A DNA stretch of 64,000 nucleotides, from assembly GCA_014871385.1 (NCBI GenBank), contig CM026426.1, positions 110,332,457 to 110,396,456 on the forward strand, written 5' to 3'. This DNA is from Ceratodon purpureus. Lineage: Eukaryota > Streptophyta > Bryopsida > Pseudoditrichales > Ditrichaceae. A program made the position numbers and the translations under genes. The notes under the pieces were generated by a model. That model was not told the origin of the DNA, did not search any database, and saw only the letters and a list, made by a program, of their open reading frames with translations. Below, one piece after another: positions 5,565 to 64,000 of the stretch. Position 1 is the stretch's first letter; every line of letters begins with the position of its first letter.

Positions 5565-6445
5565 GGATGGGGGTTTGGAGCGGCGTCGCGACTAAGGGCG
5601 GGGCAAAAGAGAGGGAGCGCGGAGCTGCCCCGCCCCTGGCCCTGCCCGCACCCTCTGCCGCACCATCGGGCTCCACTCCCGTCCCGCTCCCCGCTGCTGT
5701 CCCGCTCCCCGCTCCCCGTGATCGCCTTAGCTGGGGCTCGTGGCTCTCGCCCCCGTCCCCCTTTGTTCGCCCTCTCCGTTCCCGACGGTTCCCCACGTTC
5801 CTAAGCACCTAAAAAAATAAAAAAATAAGCTAAATTCAATTGTACTATCCTGTCCCTGCGGCGTAGCCGCAGTAGTTCCCTACGCCGGAACGGCGTCTAA
5901 TGGTTGATGACTCCTTTGTCGAATATTCTTCATCCTCTTTGGGTTTATAACATGTTTTGGTTAGTATTTTGGGAACTAAACCCTAAAACCCTAAAGCCCT
6001 AAACCCTAAACCCTAAACCTAAAACCCAAAACATGTCATAAACCCAAAGAGGATGGAGAATATTCGACAAAGGAGTCATCAACCCTAAGACGCCGTTCCG
6101 GCGTAGGGAACTACTGCGGCTACGCCGTAGGGACAGGATAGTACAATTGAATTTAGCTTATTTTTTATTTTTTTAGGTGCTTAGGAACGTGGGGAACCGT
6201 CGGGAACGGAGAGGGTGAACAAAGGGGGACGGAGGCGAGAGCCACAAGCCCCAGCTAAGGCGATCACGGGGAGCGGGGAGCGGGACAGGAGCGGGGAGCG
6301 GGACAGCAGCGGGGAGCGGGACGGGAGCGGAGCCCGATCGAGGGATAGGGCGGGTGCGGGCAGGGCCAGGGGCGGGGCAGCTCCGCGCTCCCTCTCTTTT
6401 GCCCCGCCCTTAGTGGCGAGGGCGGCCGAGCTCCTCCACCCTGAG
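5565..6445. mobile_element. fold-back element: large inverted repeat with telomere-like hinge
   Basis: Two arms of roughly 400 bp are reverse complements. The left arm runs from about 5585 to 5985 and the right from about 6003 to 6420. Each arm has a GC-rich outer half (CCCGCTCC-type repeats, near ACTAAGGGCGGGG) and an AT-rich inner half with CGGCGTAG palindromes. Similarity fades outside about 5565 and 6445, and I found no clear target-site duplication. There is no transposase inside. This matches a fold-back or large-hairpin MITE rather than a gene; the apparent open frames in it are mirror images of GC-rich DNA. Confidence 0.75.
5972..6028. repeat. telomere-type CCCTAAA repeats at the hairpin hinge
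   Basis: About six degenerate copies of CCCTAAA or CCCTAAAA lie exactly between the arms of the fold-back element. CCCTAAA is the usual plant telomere repeat. An interstitial origin is plausible, either by element capture or by break repair. Confidence 0.8.
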
Positions 6446-11700: not shown

Positions 11701-14700
11701 TTTTACACGGGGGTGTAGTTCAAGATATTATTTGGTAGAAATCCAGCGAAAATTAGCCACTTTGGGGATCTCTGCTACTGATTCTATGCATCGTGGCAGG
11801 AGGGTATGTCGGGCCGGATAATAGTCGTACTTTACTATATCGCCGAGAATGTATAAGGTAGAAGTCGTTGTGGGATGAGAACTGGATCACTTCAACTGAA
11901 TTACGAGAACGTTATTTAGAAATCCCACTTTTATCCAACAAATGTATCTATATATTGTTTTTTATAATTTTTAAATTATTTTTAATTACTTTACCATTTT
12001 TCAAATGTGTAATATAATATTTGGAGGTATTGCTCTGGGATATGTTTCTCAATTTACAATTGATTTTTATAAGTGTAAAAAATAATGATGACAAAGGTTT
12101 GCTAGTGAAGATCATAAAAATGGTATCAATCAGATTTAATGATATAAATTAATAGCCCGTTATTTTAAAATATAATAATTAATAGATATTAAAATTTATG
12201 TGACCTTAAAAGCCACTGATATAATAATAATAAAAAGTACTCTTTTTGGCTTTTCTACTAGTGCATCATTCAATAAAATATATAATTTAAAGAACATTAA
12301 AACATAGTAATTCAAAGGAGATTTAGAAAATTAAAAACAAAAGAAAATAAAAGAAGTCACATGAATACAAATAGTACTTAATATTTAAATGTGCGACACA
12401 AATCGTATATCATTAAAAGAGCCTGTTTATAAACATTATAAATTAGAATTTTAACTACAACTAATATACAATAATGTTTTTTGAAGTCAATGACTAAATT
12501 GAAATCAACCTCGTGATGTTTTTTGAAGTCAATGAGTAAATTGAAATCAACCCTGAGAGTAGTACCTTTCAATGGCTCAATTAATGATACAGCATTCAAT
12601 GAAATAGAACAATTCAAAAACAATAAAATGTAGTATTAAATAGCGGAATGCAAGACAAAAACGATTAAAAGAATGCCCTAGGAAACACTTCATCCTTGGA
12701 ATTAAATGTGCAACGATAAACCCCTCAACCTATAAGAATGAATTTAAGAACGATAGAAATAAGTATTTAAAACTACATATACTATACAATTAAGTTTAAT
12801 TAAAGCATAGTCAAATGCGGTCGCATGTTGTTCTCAAATAGGACAAATGAATCCAAATATTAACGGACATATGTTTTCAATTATGCACAACCACTAACTA
12901 AAATGGTTAATTAAAAAAAATTAAATACAATTTACAAATTAATGTGTAATTTTAGGCATAGAAGTATACACACTAGCTATAATTTAGTAAGTTAAGGAAA
13001 ATTCAATGAACAAAACACCACAATGATGAAAAACGTATAATGTATCTCGTTAAAAACATAAAACCGCAATATGTATATATTAATACCATTGTTAGTGTTT
13101 TCTACCTTACCGCATTAATCATTCAAATTAATTATTCATCACTCAATACGTATTGTGTTTTTTTTATTTATGGGTAAAAAGTATAATTTGGTAAAATTCT
13201 TCAATATCGATACGAATTGTATTAAAATGAAATGGTTGTAAAGGTGTCAGCTGGAAATAGGATAGGGTATTATGAGCATTTTAGGAAACGGGATAATTTA
13301 GTCAATGTGCAACAAACAAGACTTTAACTTCATGCATCTCGAACATATATTAGTGCCTATGATGGAGTACGCAAATCATATATGTAAGTGCTTGGTCTCT
13401 TCAAGTCCGAACTTCATGTCCTACGCTCCCCCGATGATTTATATGGGGCTAACTATTGTTGAAGTAACTATTGTTGCATCATGAAAAATATGTCATTTAT
13501 CCGTCTTTTTCTTCTGTTCGTGAGTTCTCATTGCTCATAAAAGATGTGAATAACTTCATAGCTATTGAAACAATCAATTTTCAAGATTAAAACATTATTT
13601 GACGAATGCATTTTAATTGAAAAGATTTCACTATGTTAATTTCAGAAAGTTGTTTTTAAAAAAGAATATCAAAGAACTTGACATACTTATAGTGAATGGC
13701 ATAAACCTTTTAATATTTGGCATTTGAAGATTAAAATAATACCTTTACAAACATGTGTATGTCGTTATTAGTGCATATGTCCTTTTCAAATTTGTATAGC
13801 ACAAGTTATGCATTGACAAAAACGACCACATCATGTAGTGTGAATTTGTTTATCAATTTCATGTTTGTACCAATAAATTTTGAATTAAAATTTAAAAGAA
13901 TGCCAATCCAGAACTTTGTGGAGAAGGGATAATTGACGCTGAATTGTTCGTCAATCATGGCGAACCTACAGAAACTCTAGAGGAAGTCTGGTGTCAAATG
14001 TCATCCTCCACTTGAAGCTCCAAAAGACAAAGACCTACTGATCTTCCTTATTTAGAGACATCATACTAGTGCACCTCATACCCGAATTGGATAAATGATG
14101 TGATTGTCAATGTGAATGTTCCTGACGGAGGCACTTTGATAGTGTAAGAACAATGTCCTTCACGATTGTCGAGAATGCTCTTATTGTAAATGAAATATAA
14201 CATACGAATTAGAATAATATGGAAGTTTGCATTAATTTATACGCAATACGTATACTCAAATATATATTAGTTTTATTCACTATAGAATAAGATGTAATCC
14301 TTGAAAGTGGACCGACTCATAATTTACAGATATCATTCATTTGTATTTTAATGTCAATATTTTTTATTATAATTAAATATCTTTTCTAGAATGAAGATAA
14401 ATTCATTTAAATTAATTCTACTCTTACAGTATAGATTTAGTTAATGTAATTAATAATTTAAGTATTTGATATAAGATATTTTTATCCTTTGCTTGTGGTT
14501 AGATTTGGATTAGTATTTTGTATAAGTCATTTGAAATACTTGAATTTCATTCAATTTAAGAGAGAGGGTATTACTTACACGTTGAGAACTTCCAATTTAA
14601 TAATGTCCAATTTTATTTATTAAATAATTTAAATAGGCAGTTCAAGTCCTAAATATGTTTTTTCTATATTTGTCGTTTAGGATTTGAAATATCTTTTTAA

Positions 14701-15170
14701 TATTTGTCAATTCGGATTTTAAGTCTGTTCTTCAATTACTATATGCCTCTATTGTATCATGCTCCATTACATTGAAATACCGAAATTTAAATATGAACTT
14801 CGTATTTTGAAATTGATATATTATATTAAATGTAAATGTAAAAATTTAATATTTTCATAAACTTAATTTAAAATATATAAAATTCTTGTAAAATTAAAAT
14901 TTTCTTCCAACTCATATATAATTAATTAAAAAATAAAATATTATGTAATTTTAATAGGTATTAATCTCACTGATTAGGTGCCTTTTTATCCTGTCATAGT
15001 TACATAATTTTATTTAAGTAGGAAAGGTATTTTCAATATTGATAAAATCAGATATGTGTCATTGGGAAGTTTATTATAAATTAGTCTTCTTAGTATTCAC
15101 CATATTCTGTACTGGGATGAATTGAATACAGATTTATTTTTGAAATTCCTAATGCTTTCAATTAGAATTG
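11700..15170. other. AT-rich non-coding DNA
   Basis: About 3.5 kb of AT-rich sequence without a usable frame. It contains a tandem duplication of about 42 bp (TTTTTTGAAGTCAATGA units at about 12475 and 12517). No gene or RNA was recognised. Confidence 0.7.
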
Positions 15171-22659: not shown

Positions 22660-23095
22660 AAAAATAAAAATAAAAATTAAAAAAATTAGGCATTCGAATT
22701 ATAAAATAATGTTAACCACGGAAAAATAAGAAATAAATTTAATAGCGTAGGAGTATTAAAAAAAAACAAGGGGATAGGATTGGGGAGTGGTGGAATTAGA
22801 AAAATGAACGGACGAAATGAGAGAAGGAATTAAATGAAACCATAGTGTTCGAAGAAGGGAAAAATAAAAATAAAAAAGCAAATTAAATAGCATAGGAGTA
22901 TTAAATAAAAGCAAGGGGATAGGATGGGGGAGTGGTGGAATTAGAAAAATGAACGGACGAAATGAGAGAAGGAATTAAATGAAACCATAGTGTTCCAAGA
23001 AGGGAAAAATAAAAATAAAAAACAAATTAAATAGCGTAAGAATATTAAAAAAAAACAAGGGAATAGGATGGAGGAGTGGTGGAATTAGAAAAATT
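22660..23095. repeat. 145-bp tandem repeat, about 2.5 copies
   Basis: TAGGAGTATTAAA occurs at 22748 and 22893, and its variant TAAGAATATTAAA at 23037, with the full unit between them nearly identical. The spacing of 145 and 144 bases gives the unit length. Each unit contains AGTGGTGGAATTAGAAAAAT. No coding potential. Confidence 0.85.
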
Positions 23096-32104: not shown

Positions 32105-43576
<11,472 letters not shown>

Positions 43577-51957: not shown

Positions 51958-54068
51958 GTTCCACACAAAACCCAACAAGATTAGACGACTGCAACAAGAC
52001 CCGTCACCCAAAACTCCAAAGGAAGACACCAAACCAAGCAAACTTTCGAGCAAAACCCAACAATCAACAAAAACGGAAAGAACTAAGAGCAGTGGTGAGT
52101 GATGCATCGATAGGCCCTGTTTTATGATTGCCGAGACGGAGAGCGCATAACCCAAATTTCGGAGAGCGCCACCTGCAGTTGAAACCCAGACCCAAGAATA
52201 CCCCCAATGCAGAATGCCCCACTAGCAAAACACCAATACCGGATGCAGCAAGGCGGCCATGGCTCAAGTAAGATAATTGCAGCTTTAGGCGAAGCTCACA
52301 ATAGAACAAACGCAGAGACAACATTGCACAAAATAAAAATGACGAATTCCTGGCAGGGACTTATGCACACAGGCGAAGTGCTCAAGGGATGAAGGCAAGC
52401 GATGGCGACAAATTTGGATCATCTAGGTGTATTTTCACCAATGTGGCTGAATGATGTCGAGAAAGACAGCCACTCCACACATAATGTGGGCAAAGAGACC
52501 CCAGGCTCCTCCACTTTCTGTCGTTGTCTGGCCACGACGGAGGATGGACGGAAAGCAAATGGGCGAAGTTTTTAATTTTTCATCCCTCAAAATGATACTG
52601 TATTTTGCACCAAGTGAATTATGGATGCAATTTGGCTTCTTTTCGCCCAATTTAAAAACACTGGTCTAGCGTATGGAGTGCACTAGAGTAGAGTAGAGTG
52701 GGGCCCGTGACGATGGCACTCCACCCTTGCCCTTGTAGTAACTTACCCACACCCCCTAAACGACACTTTCTATACGGGGAAAGTTCGTATATGAGCGGAG
52801 ATAGGTGAGCGGAGATAGGTGAGCGGAGAGCGGAGAGCACAGAATGGAGAGCACAGAATTGACAATTAGCCAAATTTCCAAAAGTAAAGTAGACCCAGTA
52901 ACCGTGGAAAAATACTAAAATAAGGCATGATTTTGTTCCTTTTTTTAGTAAAGGAGTATAATACCGTGGAATTCAGGGTTATCTCTGGTAAGAATTTCTT
53001 ACGTTTGTTTACAGAGGTACAAATCAGGGCTGATGTCATGATGACGTCATGCATACAATCCTTTAGATTTGGTCCCTTATTGGATCTAGATACGAGTATT
53101 TCAGCATCATGTTCTTAGATCACAATAGTAAATTTTGAATAGATAATATAGAATCTTCTTGAATTTATTTTTTTCACAAAAGCTAAAGTTAATGGTCTGA
53201 AAACTGCGTGGAATATTTCAAAGTTCGTGTACAATAAAGGAGCTTCGGAAACTAAGATGTATACCATGTCAAGGTGCTTGTCCTCATATTAGATTTTTCG
53301 GTTTGTCATATGAGCATTTTATATTTGTTTTTCTAATGAAAGTGGTTGTGTACTCTACTATATATTTTTTTAATTCTCTATCATTCTATATTAGCGTAAG
53401 CATAAATTTGGTATTGGTCCTTTCATATGTTGTTTACAAAATAACGTAGTAAAACTACTTATCGCTCCCAACTATTGCATTGTACATATTTTTCTTACAG
53501 AAGTCTAGTTCTATTACAACTGACTTCATCCTTAACCATGAAGTAAATTTTCTGCTTCGTATATTATTATCCATCACCATGTCATAAGTGATGGGGAATG
53601 ATTTTAAAGTGCTTTATTTACCGTGTCTTAATTTTGAATGAGTTATTCATCTTAAACAGAAATTTTCTCCTATCCCTACACAATTATGAGTATAGGTAAC
53701 CTCATTGCATGTACTAATGCTAATCGCTCATACCTAGTGTGGCTCAGGCTGCCCAAGGCTTTAACAGTCTATTTCTAATGAAGGCGCCTCCATTCTGTAC
53801 CGCAAAGGTATGATTTATTTGCAACACATTTGATGGGAATAAATACAAGATGTGGTTTAGGAAACTTGGTTCATCCATGACATTATTCTCGGCCACGGTT
53901 ATACTTGTTGTTCACTCTCACTTAGAGTGATATTTGCAAGGTTCTATTTGAATAGTCTCTCTACGTCAGGAGTAGAGGTTTTTACTTGCTAGAGAGTATT
54001 GTTGGTTTTTACTTGCTAGAGAGTCAGTTTGTCCGCAGATACGGTCTGTGTAGCAAGGTAGAGATCAG
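51958..54068. other. AT-rich spacer, no gene
   Basis: Short frames only. Short GAGTA and GAGCGGAGATAGGT repeats occur at 52685-52850, and a 26-bp tandem duplication (TTTTTACTTGCTAGAGAGT) at about 53980-54025, just upstream of the next gene. Confidence 0.6.
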
Positions 54069-55562
54069 ATGACGTCGAAGAGGAAGAAGGCGAACAAGCC
54101 GCATAGACCTAGGCCGGAAAGCTTGGTGCAGCATACTGTAGAAGTCCAAGACAGTAGTGATGATAACACTGTAGCTCTAAGTGATAGAGAAGAAAGTAGT
54201 GATAGAGTGTTTAGTACAGATGAGTTCAGTGATCCCTTTGATCTTGCAAATTTTGAAGAGGGGCTTCGTGAGCGAATGGTTGTTGCGGCACCAATGCTCA
54301 TAGGGTGAGATGCTGAGTACGGGAGTGATTTCTTCACTCGGGTGGTCGGACTGTGCGATAAGGGCTCGCATTTGAAGGATGTGGAAAAGTGTTACCATTT
54401 CATCACGGACGAAGAAATAGCTGCTATGTGGAAGACTGGAGTGTCGAAGGGGCGTTACGAGTTCGCAAGGTGTGAAGATGATGGACAGTTGAAGACTTTC
54501 GGCCAGCAGTACTTCAAGGTATATGGTAACCAGCCTCATAACAACTACTTCTGCCTTCGTTTTCTTAGAGCTTGTTTTGCCACATTTGTTTACAAGAAGC
54601 AAGTTAATTAGTGTGCCGAGGCATTGGATCGTCACCAATCTCGGCAGAAGACAGCATTTCGCAATCCATCCAAACTAGGGCCAGTGGCAACCAGATGCCA
54701 AGTGGAGGGCTTGTGCCGAATCATCAAGGAGCTCTCTGAAGCAGGTGGTGCTGTAGCAGTGCCTAATCATCAAGCAGGAGACCTAAAGCTAGCATTGGAA
54801 CTAGAACAGCAGAAACTCGCTGAATTGAAGAGTGTCGAGGAGCGCCTTCAAGGGACAAGACAAAGGTACAATGCATCCCTCGAAAGGATGAGAGGGGAAT
54901 CCTTTGAGATTGATGAGGAGGATCTGAACGAGAAATATTTTTCAAAACTAAAAGAAGCGAGGCAGATTCTTCGTAGAGAGGGTGCTACCGTACTATACAA
55001 GGACACCATAGCCGAGTCAGAGTCTTTGTACAAAGCTCTCGCTCATATGAGGGAAAGTGATGCGCACATCCGTGAGAATGTAGTTCAGTTAGAGGTCGAG
55101 ATGGGAAATGCAGCTAAAATCTTGGAGGATGTCACTGGAGAGTTATAACTTTGTAGGACTGCAGTCGCAGCTGCGAGGGGGCAGATGCTAAGTCTAAAAA
55201 CACCAAGAGTGTTTGAATATCCAAATATTCAATCCATTCCGCCAATGGGATACCCTGATAAGAATTCATGTGCTTACTGTGGGCTTGGTTTCATTTGGAA
55301 AGCAGCTATTCTATCATCTTGCGGTTGTTTTTTGCACCCTCCCTGTGCAGCCGAGATGATTTCATGCCAGAGTTACCGGTGCATGTCTTGCAAGGACGTT
55401 CTCCTTGCGTCATCTCCACTACATTTGTCGGAGCCTTCGGTCGTCCAGTTCGGAGGTGAGCTAAACAGCCAGCAAGAAGCAGAGTGCACTAGCTTCAGAG
55501 CAGTGCTTCAGGCTGCTAAGGATAGTTTGAAGGAACCCGGAGTAAATGGAATGAAGAGTTAA
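54069..55562 (+). pseudogene. RING-like zinc-binding coiled-coil protein, three in-frame stops
   Basis: One frame of 498 codons runs from ATG 54069 to TAA 55560-55562 with no intron or frameshift. It is interrupted only by TGA 54306-54308, TAG 54609-54611 and TAA 55146-55148; each is one C-to-T change from CGA, CAG or CAA. Order: basic start (TSKRKKANK), acidic Ser-rich stretch, a globular part ending FGQQYFKVYG, a long Glu/Leu coiled coil (LKLALELEQQKLAELKSVEE), then C-x2-C-x13-C-x-C-x2-H-x2-C-x11-C-x2-C from CAYC to CMSC. The layout and metal site match the minus-strand gene at 23.9-25.9 kb, so the two are probably one family. Function unknown. Confidence 0.75.
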
Positions 55563-56447: not shown

Positions 56448-56679
56448 TTATAAAACTCTAGGATCGTATCGTCTGAGTGGACTAGAAGATGCACTAGAAC
56501 TACTTGTAGATAGTTCTGCAAGCGCACATGCTTGAAACTCGGCATAATAAGGTAATCGGAAAGTTGGACTTGTAGGAGATGACGCAACGCGCCAAAGATC
56601 TGCCAGCTTCAAAGGACTGAAATAAACAAAATTAGTGAACTGTGATTAAGATAATGGAGATACGTAAAACAAAAATAAG

Positions 56680-57030
56680 ATGCAAAGAGAGAGGGTGGAC
56701 AGAAGGAGGGGTAAAGAAGTGATAGGGAGAGGAGCGGGAACGGTTGAGTAGATTAGAAGGGAAGGAGAGACAGGATGAGGGGCGGGGAGGTAGAGGGACC
56801 AGGAAGGGTGGGGAAAATAGATGGACAACGAGAGGGGCGGGTAGAACGAGGAAGTGGAAGAGGGAAGGCAGGGACTGGGAGAGGGATTGGTAGAGAAAGG
56901 AAGGAGATGAGGGAACGGAGGGACAAGGAGTGGGGCAGGGAGTGAGGGGGAAATGTAGGGGGGATTGGAGTAGAGAGAGAATGAGTGAAGGCAGAGGGAG
57001 AATGGGAGGAACAGGTAGAGGGGCGGAACT
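56680..57030. repeat. polypurine tract in the last intron of the methyltransferase-like gene
   Basis: About 350 bases are overwhelmingly A and G on the plus strand (AGGGAGAGGAGCGGGAACGG type), with few pyrimidines. They form a polypyrimidine stretch in the transcript's last intron (56617-57033). Confidence 0.85.
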
Positions 57031-59169
57031 TACTTACATAAATTAATTTTTCCCTTATCAGGAAGGGGCTCGTCGTCATCAGTGTCTCCAATGACTTCTG
57101 TGTTAATAGCAGCAACTGGAGGTGGTACAGATGGAGTGAACTGAAGAGGCTCGAGAACTTCTTTGAAAATTGAGGTATCTCCCTCAAGTGCAACGATGTG
57201 TCTAGAAGCAGCCCGAGCAGCCCGAACCGAGGCTCCTATATGTCGAAACAGTTAATAAACTATACCTCAAAAATATTATTTCAAGAAATAGCAGTTAATG
57301 TCAAATACTACTCACCAGATCCAGTAGTAAGGTCCACAATAACTCCATCCTCTGGACATAATGCGGTCACAAAGAGTTGTTGTAAGGAATCTGATTTCTC
57401 TTTAGGACCTTGCCAGAGATTGCCATCGTCTTTCTTCTTAATGGCCGTCTCAGATGTGATGACGTGGAAAACAACGTCATCTTTCACCAAGTCAACATTC
57501 TGAAACTCATTAATGGCGCCATAGACAAACTCCTTTGGCTGCCTCTTGACTGAAATAGGAAGAGAGCGGACAAGGACGATGACCCTGGATTTCAATGTCT
57601 GCAAATAATGGATTAATCAGTATGAGAAGGTAGTTATGAAATATTACTATTAAAAATAATAATGAAGATTTAAAGTAAGAACTTACAAACTTTGAAGAGT
57701 CCAAGGGGTGGCATAAATGGAGCGAATTGATGACTGTCCACTCCCCCTTCTCCATCAGATTATTGTTGTTGAAAAATCGAGAGAGTTCTTTCTTGATTAA
57801 ATGGTTGTCTGGGTAAAATTGAAGAAGTGCCCCGTCGTCATGTAGAAATCCACCGCAGAAACCAATGACTAGTTCCAGAAAATCAGCAACCATCTCATTC
57901 TAAGAAGGAATAGAGGTAGGTGTCTGTGACACTCCTGGAACTGGGAGACCATCAGGATAATCTGCTATAACCAGGTCAACTGCAGGCGAATCTGAAATCT
58001 TTCTGTCAAAGAAATACTCCTTTCTAGCTCCGATCTGTACGCATTAAATAATTCATGAGATTCAGAATACAAATATACACCAACAAAAGTCGAAGTGAAA
58101 AGTTTCAAAGAAGCGGTTACCTTTGTTAGAGTAGAAGTGAGTAACTCGTATGACGGAGGAAACCTCTTGTTCTTTGCCTTGTACTTCACCATACCCGAGA
58201 ACGTGTCATTTAGTACAAGAACTGAGGAAGATATACTGGATAAAGGAGCACGCTGCGACAATCCCATTGACTTCATTGACGGCGGAGTAAGTTCATGCTG
58301 TGTTGCTAAACATACAGGAGATACGTGAGGGCGCTTGGCGGGTTGAGTCATAGGCTCGCGAGGAGCGCTGACCGTCTCTGCCTCCGTACGTCCGTCACCT
58401 TGCTCATCATTCTGCCCCTCACCAGGCACGACCCTCTGCTCCTTGGTAGCAGCGGTAGTGGCTGGAATATCTTCGTCTTGATCTACCTCTAACTCACTTG
58501 CCTTCCTCTTTTGAACCCGAGCCTTTCCAGCCCCCTTACCTCTCTTTCTCCTGGGCTTTCGAGTTGGGGGCGATTGGGGCTCATCTTCTTCAGGTGGCGG
58601 CGGTGGAAGGAGAGATAGAGCAGGTTGAAGGGAATCCCGGAGAGGGACATCGAAGGCCGGGGGCTTCTTCGGTGGAAAATCCATATACCAACCGCATCGA
58701 TCATAATGAACAGCATCCCAAGCGTTTAACATGGCTGGAGTATACATACATTCTGTACTAGTGAGATCAAGGTAGTTGGTGAAGAATGCGGGAACCTTGG
58801 ACACTGCCTTGCGGGGGTAGAGAATGTACTTGAAGTATCGAAATAGAACTCTCGTCACAGCTTGAGAGAAATTGGGCATTTGATCTGAAGTCTTGTTTTT
58901 GTGCACTTGGTCGGGGCCTTTGAATTCGCGAAAAAATGCATGGTCCCACAATGAGCACCGCATAGATTCAACGAAGTCAAACACTTGCTCAATGGGATCT
59001 TCTCCGACTAACTCGTAGTTGATACTAACTCCCATGTCCTCAATGACATGGGAGAAGAGGTCCTCGACCTCAACTGCCAACTGTGAGGCAAAGACAATAT
59101 AGATAAGAGCATTGCACTGCGAAATAGTAAAAAAAAACCGTAATGCAAAACTTTTAAACATACTAATGG

Positions 59170-59610
59170 TTCTTATTTATACTGCCGTTGCCGGCAGTAC
59201 AAATAAGGACTCCGTTGGACACGGCAAGGAGTCATAATAAACTTAGCAGTCTATGGGTTCTGCCATTGCTGGCAGTACCCTAGCACTGCTCAATCACGTA
59301 CCCAGGGATAAGAGGAACACCCTCGGGGTACTGCCGGCAACCGCAGTACCCCTCTACTGGCTAAGGAGAATTCTCCTCAGACTGTCGGCAGTACCCCACC
59401 TTGGCTTCGGTTGTGATGGCTAGGGTAATATAAGGAGCACTCTCGGGGTACTGCCGGCAACCGCAGTACCCCTTGACTACCAAAGGGAATTCCTCTGAGG
59501 CTTTCTCTGAGAACCGCCGTTGCCGACAGTCCCCCCACAATGCTCAACAGCGGAAGATATTTGTTACTGCTGGACTGAGCACGGGCAGACCAGGTAACCG
59601 CAGTATCCAT
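59170..59610. repeat. palindromic repeat array, intron 5
   Basis: Six to seven copies of a roughly 28-bp imperfect palindrome (core GGGGTACTGC-CGGCAAC-CGCAGTACCCC) lie 60 to 75 bases apart. They lie only in the intron between exons 59709-60125 and 58121-59116. Good copies are at about 59336 and 59446; others are degenerate. Confidence 0.85.
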
Positions 59611-61194
59611 AGACTCTGCAGCCTTTGCTTACTGTCGTTCTTTGCAAAGCCTTGGCTACAAAAATTGAATGAGAATAAAAGTAAATGCAAAATGAGACTA
59701 GGTCATACCTGTGCCCACCAGGTCGCCTTATGCAGCCATGGTGGAAAATTAACATCAGCAAATCTTGGCTTCGGAAATCTGTGAGATTCTCGAATTGCTG
59801 CTGAGGAGTTCCAGCGCGAAAGCCACTTTACTTTCATTTTGGGAGGCATCGCCGATGTCGCAATCATCCATAGCTTTTCTTGCGTCATCTCCGGAGACTC
59901 GTCATATTTCTCGTAATGTACCTTAATCTGCTCCAAGAAAGCAGGGGTGTTGGCTGGGTCCCCAATAGGAAGAAGCTTCTTTAACTCACTGAGAAATGTG
60001 TCTGCCGTTCTCTTCACAGCCTTGCTGATCCGGTCGTCAACTGATTTTGAGGTCCACTGGTGGGGCTCTGGATACCTCTCATAAAATCGTCGTTTCGCCG
60101 CTCAGGCAGCCTCACCTAATTCTTGCTGCCATAAAACGAGCAAAGCGCTTACAAATCTTAAGTATTCTCTCGGCTAGCTCAAGGGATCAACAAAAGGTAC
60201 ATGCAAATAATATTGCTGAAATTGTGAATGGAAGCTTATGACTCATACCTGATGCAGCACCGTATTGAGGCCATCCAGTGTCAACGTATACCAAGTACGT
60301 TTCGCTCCAGCCTGTTTTGCTTTGGCGCTGTCCAAGGTCGCCTTGCTTACGATGCCTTCGTAGTAGGAAAAAGGTTGAGGAGCAATGCTCTGTATACGGT
60401 ACAGTTTATAAACCATGTTTGTCCCGACGTGAGACTTCTGGTTCCTCCTGTTCATCACACGAAGAATCTTATAAATAAACAGAGATAAGAATCTAAATTA
60501 ATGCATGAGGTTAACGAGGTACAATCTTACCAGTTCACTTCGTGAAGAGCCTCAAGCACCAATGCCACGTCGCTCTTCGGATCAAGAATGATACTCTCGA
60601 CTCTAAAATGCCAATCCATTTCTCCCAAATGGAACTGGTCAATAACAGGAAGCCACGCCTGAAGTCTATGATTCCCGTCCCAAACCATGAACATCTTGTT
60701 CGAAAACACCTTTAGATCTTCATCTCCAAGCAACTCGTGTTCAAATTCCTCATTGCAGTATTGCCATTCGGGACTCCACTTGTCATAAATGGCGTCTGTC
60801 ACATCCCTTGTCTTACCATGATTGTCCTCAAGAGCGACATAGAAATATCAGGTTCCCTCCAAATACCCATAGCTAGTGAAATGCGAAGACAATGTAAGTA
60901 CGTCATTCCTCAATGACGGTCTCACTACTGGAAGTGCCATCATTCTACATAAGGGTATGTGAAGTTTGTCCTTCACAGTCAGTTTCTATTTCAGTTGATC
61001 AAGCCGCGAAGCTGTATTGGTTTGAGACTTCCCAACAAGCTCATTGAGCTTCAAATTCACCTCTAATTCTGTCAGTGGTGCCGCATCAATTTCTGGATCA
61101 ATACACATGTAAAATGAGTTATTGATATTCACACAACGCAAAGTGACTACTTAGTGAACCAAGAGAGCCCCGAGACAGCCCAAGGAGAAATCTC

Positions 61195-61840
61195 CAAAGG
61201 CAATGAAGGGATACTGCCGTTGCCGGCAATACTCCTTGACTGCCTAAGGCGATTTCCCTTTCGCGGTTCTCGGGGTACTGCGGTTGCCGGCAGTACCCTG
61301 AAGGTGCACCTGATTTCACCAAGGGAATCACAACAAAGAACAAGGTGGGGTACTGCCGGCAACAGCAATACCCCACCAGAGACAAAGGAGAATTCTCCTA
61401 AGGCATTGAAGGGGTACTGCCGGCAACCGCAGTACCCCATGACTGCCACTAGAGAATTCTCTTAAGGCTTTCTCGGGGTACTGCGGTTGCCGGCAGTACT
61501 CCGAGAGTTCACCAAGGCCATCACCGCCGAAGCCAAGGTGAGGTACTGCCGGCAACGGCGGTACCCCGAGACAACCAAAGGAGAATTCTCTTTAGGCATT
61601 GAAAGGGTACTGCCGGCAACCGCAGTACCCCATGACTGCCACTAGAGAATTCTCTTAAGGCTTTCTCGAGGTATTGCGGTTGCCGGCAGTACCCCGAGAG
61701 TGCACCCTACTTCACCAAGGCCATGCCGACCACAGCAAAAGAATGGTACTGCCGGCAACGGCAGTACACCCGAGACAGCCTATGGCAAATTTTCCTTTGG
61801 CTGTCAAAGGGTACTGCGGTTGCCGGCAGTACCCCGAAGG
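61195..61840. repeat. palindromic repeat array, intron 2
   Basis: Ten copies of the same palindrome, in both orientations, start near 61201, 61273, 61347, 61413, 61475, 61541, 61607, 61670, 61745 and 61808. Spacing is 62 to 75 bases. Linkers are also similar to each other (GAGAATTCTC, AAGGC, CACC--CTTCACCAAGG). The array lies in the intron between exons 61923-62127 and 60539-61092. Confidence 0.9.
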
Positions 61841-62834
61841 TGCTCCTCATATCCTTATAGCCGGATGTACACCCTAAACCAGATTCATAAAACATCACGA
61901 AGGCAAAAGAATCGCAACGTACCTTCCTCTTCGTCGACAGGGTCTTCGGTGTCGACTTTTCCATCCTGCGGAGTGATTGCATCTTCCTCCTCACGCGAAC
62001 CCGGATCTCCATCATCCTGCGACGCCGTGTCTTCTTGCTCTGCTGAAGCCGCGGCTAAACCTGGGGTTTGCTTCATTTCTACGTCCTCGGATGCGGACTC
62101 CTGGCGAGGCTGCCCGGACTGCGGCAGCTGTGATGGCAATGACAATAGAGAAATGTCAAACCCTAAACGAAAGCACAATAGAAGTGGTCGACTGAATTGC
62201 TGCAACCGAATAGAAGGTAGAGAAAAAAGAAATGCAAAACCTAGAGAGGGATGGTTGTAAAGTGCTGATCACTGACTGAGCTAGAATGGGGGTTGAGGAA
62301 TGCGGGCTCGTTCTGCTTATACCATGGAACGGATTGATCAAACTACTTCAGTACTAGGTACAGAGTTGGCCTGAAGTATTGCTCCAATATAAATCCATGA
62401 CTGTGCCCTAAGAATGATGTTAGTACTAACCCAAGAGTATTGATGACCCTCATTCATTGCCTTTAAATTAGAACTCGTTATTTCTCCAGAAACATTGGAG
62501 TAATATATGCCAGTAAAAACATGTTTGATTTACTACGATCAAAGAATGAACTAACCTCTCCGTCGTTGGTGTCACTGGATTCAGACAGCACCTGTTGGCA
62601 ACTATTCTTCTCTGTCTTCCCTATCTTCTGCCGTCTACCGTAGCGTAAGGTTTGATCGTCACAAACCTCGAGTTCCTCTTCCAACGCTTCAGTAAACAAT
62701 ACCTTTGTAATCCCCTCTTTCTCAAATCGCTCAGTCTGTTTAAGCTTCTTTGCCATCCTACTCCTTGCTAATTGCTTTGCCGAACTATAATGCGTCCCCT
62801 GCTTTCTCCTCCTCTTTCTAGTTGACTCCTGCAT

Positions 62835-63426: not shown

Positions 63427-64000
63427 ATGGGGATGGTTTGTCTGAATGCCCAAGGCATGGGAATCCCTCTTAGGTTTCGCGTAGATGACGATGGTCTAAC
63501 TACAGTTTCCTCTCTTCGCCTGAGTCTCGGATGCCATTTCCGTGAGGATTCCATCACTATAGAGGAGGAGATATTTGATGGCGTTACTGACGAGGTTACC
63601 CACACCCTCGGGCAACCTTCAGTGCGAGATGAGAACAATATGTTGCAGTGGAGACTCTTCCCTGGATCCTATAGAGTCTATGGTCTTACTGATTCTCTAA
63701 TGGCTGCATCCACGGAGATCCTCACCCCCCGTCGCTCTTCTACTTGCACAATTCAGACTCACTTACCTCCAAATGTCAAGGTCAAAGTCGAGCCTGGTAC
63801 CGAGACTGCAAATGTAGAGAAACCTCCTCCAACCGTCATATCTCTCTCTTCTGATGACAAAGTCAGTCCCGTCAAATTGGTGCCCAAGGTCCACGCTGAT
63901 GCTCCTCCTTCCAGTGTCTCTCCTCCATTGTCTCAAATCACAGTTACTATCGTTACGCTTCTTAAAGAGATTGCTAACACGCGTGGGTCAAAAAACATTT
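63427..64000 (+). CDS. unrecognised open frame running off the right edge (partial)
   Basis: From ATG 63427 (MGMVCLNAQGMGIPLRF) 191 codons stay open to the end of the window with no stop. The N-terminal 110 residues are mixed and acidic (EEEIFDGVTDEV), perhaps beta-rich. They are followed by a Lys/Val region with KVKVEPGTE, then TVISLSSDDK and a Pro/Ser-rich tail. No family recognised. A 574-base gap in stops, third-position pyrimidine bias and an ATG after a pyrimidine-rich leader support real coding. It is divergent from the methyltransferase-like gene and may share its promoter. Confidence 0.55.
   Translation, partial: MGMVCLNAQGMGIPLRFRVDDDGLTTVSSLRLSLGCHFREDSITIEEEIFDGVTDEVTHTLGQPSVRDENNMLQWRLFPGSYRVYGLTDSLMAASTEILTPRRSSTCTIQTHLPPNVKVKVEPGTETANVEKPPPTVISLSSDDKVSPVKLVPKVHADAPPSSVSPPLSQITVTIVTLLKEIANTRGSKNI

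Follow-up and report, generated by a model that had tools for sequence, protein, structure and literature searches.

Fusions of a ParB fold to a DNA methyltransferase (MTase) domain of family PF01555 are more frequent in phages, according to a 2025 PNAS survey in which 28 ParB-fold proteins were purified and 11 of them bind nucleoside triphosphates (NTP) (PMC12704722). Motif arrays within a transposon's own genes have been described for VANDAL21, where arrays of the kind bound by VANC21 sit in the introns of VANC21 and VANB21 (PMC5735166). Here, we describe a ParB-MTase gene of the moss Ceratodon purpureus, found in a 64-kb stretch of DNA (the window; C6:110332457-110396456 of the 362.5-Mb assembly). 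The gene is carried as cargo by a transposon, the left end of which lies at window position 52776. C6 is 110,524,308 bp long, which agrees with a review in which one of the two sex chromosomes of Ceratodon measures 110.5 Mb (PMC9273592). Because of this agreement the window very probably lies on a moss sex chromosome (U or V).

The transposon and its gene layout

The element measures 15,959 bp and carries TTCTATAC on both sides. As its right terminus lies beyond the window, positions there are given in joined coordinates, i.e., the window numbering continued past its right edge; the window copy is termed W. The left copy of the 8-bp target-site duplication TTCTATAC occupies 52768-52775 and the right copy follows directly after joined 68734. 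The left terminus (52776-52860, plus strand) begins with GGGGAAAGTTCGTATATGAGCGGAG, contains subterminal GAGCGGAG repeats and is common to a second copy, E (on C8), and the other end of the element is an imperfect inverted copy of it.

The ParB-MTase gene runs on the minus strand from the ATG at 62834 to the TAA at 56450-56448. It is divergent to the transposase gene, of which the start lies in the window (63427-64000, plus strand; open reading frame (ORF) 63325-65550 joined) and which runs to about joined 67101; about 590 bp lie between the two start codons. Gene 1 (54612-55562, plus strand) consists of a coiled-coil ORF followed by a RING-like Cys/His ORF, both patterns having been judged by eye. 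Its ORFs are also present in copies E and F, and no Pfam family scored over its cut-off.

Compared with E and F, W shows 92.5-97.3% DNA identity in the main blocks, which start at 52818 in F and at 53345 in E and reach joined 67573 and 66977, the limits of the stretches compared. An extra block shared by W and E at 86% covers 52776-53107 and ends at GGGGAAAGTTCG. A distant family is represented by C, an element on C12, and D, one on C3, which are 91.6-97.5% alike in their main aligned blocks, have the termini GGGGAATGCTAG...TAGCCTCCCTC and are flanked by the 9-bp duplications GTCCTTGCA and TGCATGTTG. For copies A and B one terminus each was found. The ParB-MTase, transposase and coiled-coil genes have the same order and orientation in all seven copies compared (W, E, F and A-D). 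The coiled-coil genes of the two families have no mutual tblastn match at 1e-4 and share only their position.

The ParB exon of the window has at least 150 matches in the genome (the best 150 of 1828 candidates), which are 56-93% identical besides the exon itself and most of which, as listed, are free of stops. The transposase core occurs in the window and in at least 149 other places at 98-99% identity (best 150 of 2060 candidates), and because of these near-identical cores the transposon family was probably active recently. The earlier note on this DNA, made from its sequence, had offered as one origin that the gene is part of an undescribed eukaryotic mobile element, and the terminal repeats, target duplication, transposase and abundance of ParB-exon matches support this; the note had missed the transposon end inside the window.

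Further observations concern individual copies and their distribution. C6, which makes up 30% of the genome, holds 67 of the best 150 ParB exons versus 17 of the best 150 transposase cores. The identity of W to E and F is 96-97% through most of the left part of W and drops to 92-94% toward and across the transposase; given the identity of its transposase core to those of so many others, W may be a mosaic element. The left terminus of copy E directly adjoins (L031/L032 joined, about 14566-15000) a transposase fragment that is 91% identical and of the same family, and E seems to be inserted in or beside another element copy. In the abundant copy L041 (2998-5861), open frames divergent to the transposase contain a long tandem repeat with a unit of about 171 bp, which codes for repeated blocks in more than one frame.

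Gene model, predicted protein and selection

Conceptual splicing of the window copy joins ten exons in a single phase, every intron having a GT donor and an AG acceptor. From the splice joins and the comparison with copy E, the minus-strand exons were placed as follows: exon 1 with the ATG at 62556-62834, the acidic exon 2 at 61923-62127, exon 3 at 60531-61092, exon 4 at 60249-60447, exon 5 at 59709-60110, exon 6, a partly charged, low-complexity linker, at 58121-59080, exon 7 at 57687-58034, exon 8 at 57316-57598, exon 9 at 57034-57235 and exon 10 at 56448-56616. Exon 3 encodes a ParB/sulfiredoxin (Srx)-fold domain with DGNHR, the fold being assigned from the exon of a relative. Exon 7 contains the motif IV position, DLVIADYPDG, exon 8 contains GPKEKS and the DLTTGS of motif I, and exon 9 the end of motif I, AARAA and VALEGD. 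Intron 9 (56635-57033) has a strong purine/pyrimidine bias that gives rise to long minus-strand Pro/Ser/Leu open frames.

Copy E keeps all nine donor and all nine acceptor dinucleotides, its exons have the same lengths as in W, and across all ten exons, including 12-base flanks, the two copies are 95.6-98.9% identical. Because splice dinucleotides and exons are conserved in this copy, the exon structure is, judged by sequence comparison, not due to chance. The ten in-phase GT-AG exons of the earlier note are thus confirmed by the same splice sites in E, and its reading of a DGNHR box followed by permuted MTase motifs (motif IV position, then DLTTGSG, AARAA and VALEGD) stands with the exon positions given above. 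W contains four in-frame stops (two TAG, two TGA) that the earlier note does not mention: exon 3 contains two of them, exons 5 and 7 one apiece. Because of these stops W is a pseudogene and yields no full protein. Copy E is open at all four positions and has one different stop. In copy F (on C3) breaks interrupt the reading frame, and only part of exon 6 was recovered.

The predicted protein comprises about 1,200 residues with long linkers. By structural model and profile, the family combines a predicted N-terminal ParB/sulfiredoxin (NTP-binding) fold with a predicted C-terminal permuted amino-MTase fold. Structure prediction and fold search for the ParB exon of a relative returned ParB/Srx structures, and the conserved G-x-(H/R)-R loop of this superfamily is present. 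Foldseek matches of this model include a 'DNA methylase' of phage Vincenzo and giant-virus proteins at E values of 1.6e-3 and 4.6e-3. No ParB Pfam family was matched in the window exons, in the pieces of relatives or in 77 ParB-exon members. The best sub-threshold family was DndB (0.018) in the pieces of relatives scanned, and MC2 (0.0029, one member), DUF5531 (0.011, seven members) and DndB (0.011, one member) over the 77 members. A ParB helix-turn-helix (HTH) had no Pfam match in the pieces scanned, with no search aimed at an HTH, a dimerisation domain or ParA. A single-sequence fold of the L027 frame reached a pLDDT (predicted local distance difference test) of only 35.7.

A profile built from six family members matches the MTases DpnA and CcrM, and the alignment spans both motif IV and motif I against CcrM and P0051. 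Among relatives, all 32 matches to PF01555 in the genome score over its cut-off (150 of 773 candidates scored), as do two motif I exons (31.6 and 31.0 bits); L027 lies under it (24.3 bits). The window MTase exons give E = 0.017 and 15.5 bits, and the cut-off of 26.7 is not reached. Thus, the ParB plus N6/N4-MTase combination proposed earlier stands at the level of fold and profile through the relatives (ParB/Srx, DpnA, CcrM, PF01555), but the window exons themselves fall below the PF01555 cut-off; likewise, the structure and profile check that the note had proposed found MTase and ParB-like folds in relatives, but no ParB Pfam match. The order of the motifs is permuted, as motif I (DLTTGSG or DLxASTG, DxFxGxG-like) comes after motif IV. 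Motif I and GPxEKS are retained. The canonical motif IV of PF01555 MTases is (D/N/S)PP(Y/F/W); the window has DYPD and relatives have DQPF/Y or DVPE. Position 4 is D/E and not Y/F/W in all 44 matches in which the motif was found, P0051 excepted, and position 1 is often E.

Spliced W with X at the stops, used as a protein query, had no relative among 7994 candidates; alignments of relatives used as queries gave 51 matches for the MTase and 639 for the ParB part. Two loci in viral contigs match residues 69-122 at 37% identity, in one case (L036) within a frame open over the entire 4.1-kb locus. A scan of prokaryote genomes yielded 40 pattern matches with no relative among them. L027 (3051-4751) and L028 (2910-4616) represent a third, diverged lineage, in which the middle part up to motif I forms one open frame of 567-569 residues.

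Selection was assessed from the ratio of nonsynonymous to synonymous substitution (dN/dS), using Nei-Gojobori counts between relatives; pairs with saturated dS give no ratio. For L29/L009, dS amounts to 0.101, 0.057, 0.076 and 0.029 in the ParB, middle and two MTase pieces, and dN to 0.002, 0.003, 0 and 0. The ratios by piece are 0.03, 0.06, 0.15 and 0.24 for A/B, 0.14, 0.28, 0.15 and 0.10 for C/D, and 0.08, 0.06, 0.09 and 0.16 for A/C, the latter at a dS of 0.9-2.0. The L027/L028 ratio amounts to 0.11 in the ParB piece, compared with 0.44 in the piece from the middle to the MTase. Such comparisons show related copies under purifying selection, which maintained the gene as it moved. Ratios involving the window copy and its closest relatives are scattered and rest on few substitutions (W/F 0.6-3.2, E/W 0.18-1.2, E/F 0.24-0.41); for W, E and F this is consistent with decay of copies after insertion.

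Elsewhere in the 64-kb window, no tRNA or Rfam match at gathering level was found. Telomere-like CTAAACC repeats lie at 5976-6032, a 145-bp tandem repeat at 22722-23094 and a 60-copy AT run at 35778-35898.

Intronic arrays, proposed function and rival explanations

In introns 2 and 5 of the ParB-MTase gene, a unit of about 64 or 75 bp that includes the palindrome GTACTGCnGnnnnCnGCAGTAC is repeated in tandem. Allowing up to 3 mismatches, ten copies form the array of intron 2 (61211-61832) and four lie in intron 5 (59179-59469); in all, W, E and F have 14, 22 and 22. There are 179 exact occurrences of GTACTGCCGGCAACNGCAGTAC in the genome and none of its reversed control. All 100 places listed of these 179 have a ParB exon of the window lineage at no more than 1.35 kb; 11 such exons are involved and, among these places, the array flanks the exon on both sides in 10 of the 11. 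The mean top-base share is 0.81 in the core versus 0.48 in the flanks, a comparison biased by picking units by core match, and some of the 89 array units found when up to 5 mismatches are allowed are stray matches.

In the window element the second D of the transposase is followed by CLFH (CxxH), and both families have a C-terminal SWIM-like CxCx(n)CxH; the likely third acidic residue, by eye, lies in NLAETVHNKW. The duplications of 8 bp (W) and 9 bp each (C and D), together with imperfect terminal repeats, are a Mutator trait and fall within about 8-11 bp, the range of Mutator sizes being tabulated in PMC6446971. On the basis of the CxxH, the SWIM-like motif and the duplication size, and not of a profile match, we regard the element as a putative Mutator-like DNA transposon.

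The explanation that we favour, with somewhat more belief than doubt, is that the gene is a decayed accessory gene of such a Mutator-like transposon, whose protein acts on the element's own DNA. ParB loads at palindromic parS sites. The ParB fold would load the protein on element DNA in an NTP-gated manner; in the window lineage the loading sites would probably be the palindromic arrays that lie within the gene itself, in introns 2 and 5. This role of the arrays is proposed because motif arrays of the VANC21 type lie in VANDAL21 introns. The MTase fold would then modify, or only sense, that DNA, and the outcome would be an element shielded from host silencing or a control of transposition. Methyl transfer in the window lineage is doubtful because motif IV is changed, and the DQPF/Y lineages are better candidates for active enzymes. 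It is a rather doubtful proposal that the whole forms a self-recognition system, in which a ParB/amino-MTase loads on parS-like arrays in its own introns and modifies or shields the chromatin of the element. If true, ParB-type spreading and an N6/N4-type MTase would have been turned into an anti-silencing device of a eukaryotic transposon.

Several results weigh against the favoured explanation. A ParB exon from the best 150, upstream of the transposase, on the opposite strand and within 30 kb, accompanies only 6 of the best 150 transposase copies, W included; among the matches listed, two of these pairs are within 8 kb, and the other three possible arrangements within 30 kb occur 2, 1 and 2 times. 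In 6 kb examined of an abundant copy, the place where the gene would start is taken by open frames with long tandem repeats, and the roughly 5 kb on that side contain no ParB exon; many near-identical relatives may be without the ParB-MTase gene or have it further off. Conversely, six stretches of 8-20 kb around ParB/MTase exons (L009, L29, L011, L014, L027 and L028) contain no coiled-coil match and, except for 47 residues at the edge of L29, no transposase match. The palindrome, at up to 3 mismatches, is absent from A, B, C, D and the same six stretches. The array goes with the gene, and shared descent alone would explain its placement, which thus leaves binding unproven. A canonical motif IV is found in none of the 44 matches, P0051 excepted. 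The Mutator assignment is not confirmed by profile comparison: the transposase has no Pfam MULE (Mutator-like element) or SWIM match, the 93 PF10551 matches listed (150 of 384 candidates scored) are all located outside these elements, and hhalign against Mutator transposases of the same genome gives a probability below 1%.

Among the rivals, a possible one, which we take seriously without expecting it to be right, is that the window-lineage MTase is a dead pseudo-enzyme serving DNA or cofactor binding, so that the protein would be a DNA-binding repressor or anti-silencing regulator. The acidic residue at position 4 of motif IV and the frequent E at position 1 fit this idea, as do the likeness of the motif among these matches and the keeping of ParB and arrays, although motif I and GPxEKS are retained and other lineages have DQPF/Y.

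An unlikely rival is transposition control, in which the ParB part nicks DNA or the MTase marks the ends, timing transposition to replication. Dam methylation times some bacterial transposons in this way. The divergent position next to the transposase, with its short distance between start codons, would suit such a role, but the ends of the element yielded no match to the intronic palindrome. A Bacillus cereus ParB-methylase with reported nicking activity, cited in PMC5512222, likewise speaks for it.

That the gene is a captured passenger, hitch-hiking with no benefit to the element, is improbable: Mutator-like elements tend to pick up host gene fragments (PMC6446971), but here place and orientation are fixed in two distant families and dN/dS between copies is low. 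More improbable still is a gene that the moss acquired long ago by horizontal transfer, that has since gained introns and that now serves the host. Ten exons with conserved splice sites would be in keeping with it, but the matches, at least 150, are dispersed, the copies with ends examined sit within transposons with target duplications, and W, E and F contain stops. The other origin offered in the earlier note, an old transfer that gained introns, was accordingly dropped as a stand-alone host gene. Least probable is an endogenous giant-virus remnant, which the giant-virus matches of the ParB model would suggest, as terminal repeats, short target duplications and a transposase are present instead and no viral gene was seen by eye in the ORF lists, viral profiles not having been searched.

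Relation to known systems

Transposons with their own DNA-modification genes show how elements evade host silencing, and a phage-type fold pair is now found in a land-plant transposon. The locus also presents a case of target arrays embedded in a gene that may encode their reader, and it is a possible source of marks other than 5-methylcytosine (5mC) in moss DNA. The literature search, which did not extend to Repbase or most subscription papers, yielded no account of a plant transposon with a ParB-MTase gene, and one may have been published there. Papers on moss and Ceratodon Mutator-like elements, judged by title and start of the abstract, likewise yielded none on such a gene.

Phage and prophage fusions of ParB and PF01555 hold the same two folds in one protein and are likewise linked to mobile DNA; in the main text of that survey the words plant, moss and transpos are absent (PMC12704722). 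The moss gene differs from them in its place in a plant nuclear transposon, its introns, its length with long linkers and its non-canonical motif IV. The anti-silencing protein VANC of the Arabidopsis VANDAL elements is encoded by an accessory gene of a Mutator-type transposon, as the moss protein putatively is, and in both systems the introns of element genes hold short motif repeats whose number varies between copies (PMC5735166). Anti-silencing of the VANC type entails binding to such motifs and a loss of DNA methylation at the element. The moss protein differs from VANC in domain content, and array binding is suggested for it by analogy only. VANC is not known to contain a ParB or MTase fold.

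DNA methyltransferase genes borne by transposable elements are also described from dinoflagellates and charophytes; these are C5-cytosine enzymes in retrotransposons, whereas in the moss gene an amino-MTase fold is joined to ParB, and the carrier is a DNA transposon (PMC5890265). Fungal TET/JBP dioxygenase genes are likewise DNA-modification genes in DNA transposons, but they are 5mC-oxidising, and the transposon superfamilies listed for them differ from the one proposed for the moss element (PMC12730594). The N4-cytosine MTases of bdelloid rotifers and of Marchantia, also a bryophyte, are bacterial-type amino-MTases in a eukaryotic nucleus as well; unlike the transposon-borne moss gene they have been recruited to a host role, and the Marchantia enzyme is said to be without additional domains (PMC8885841).

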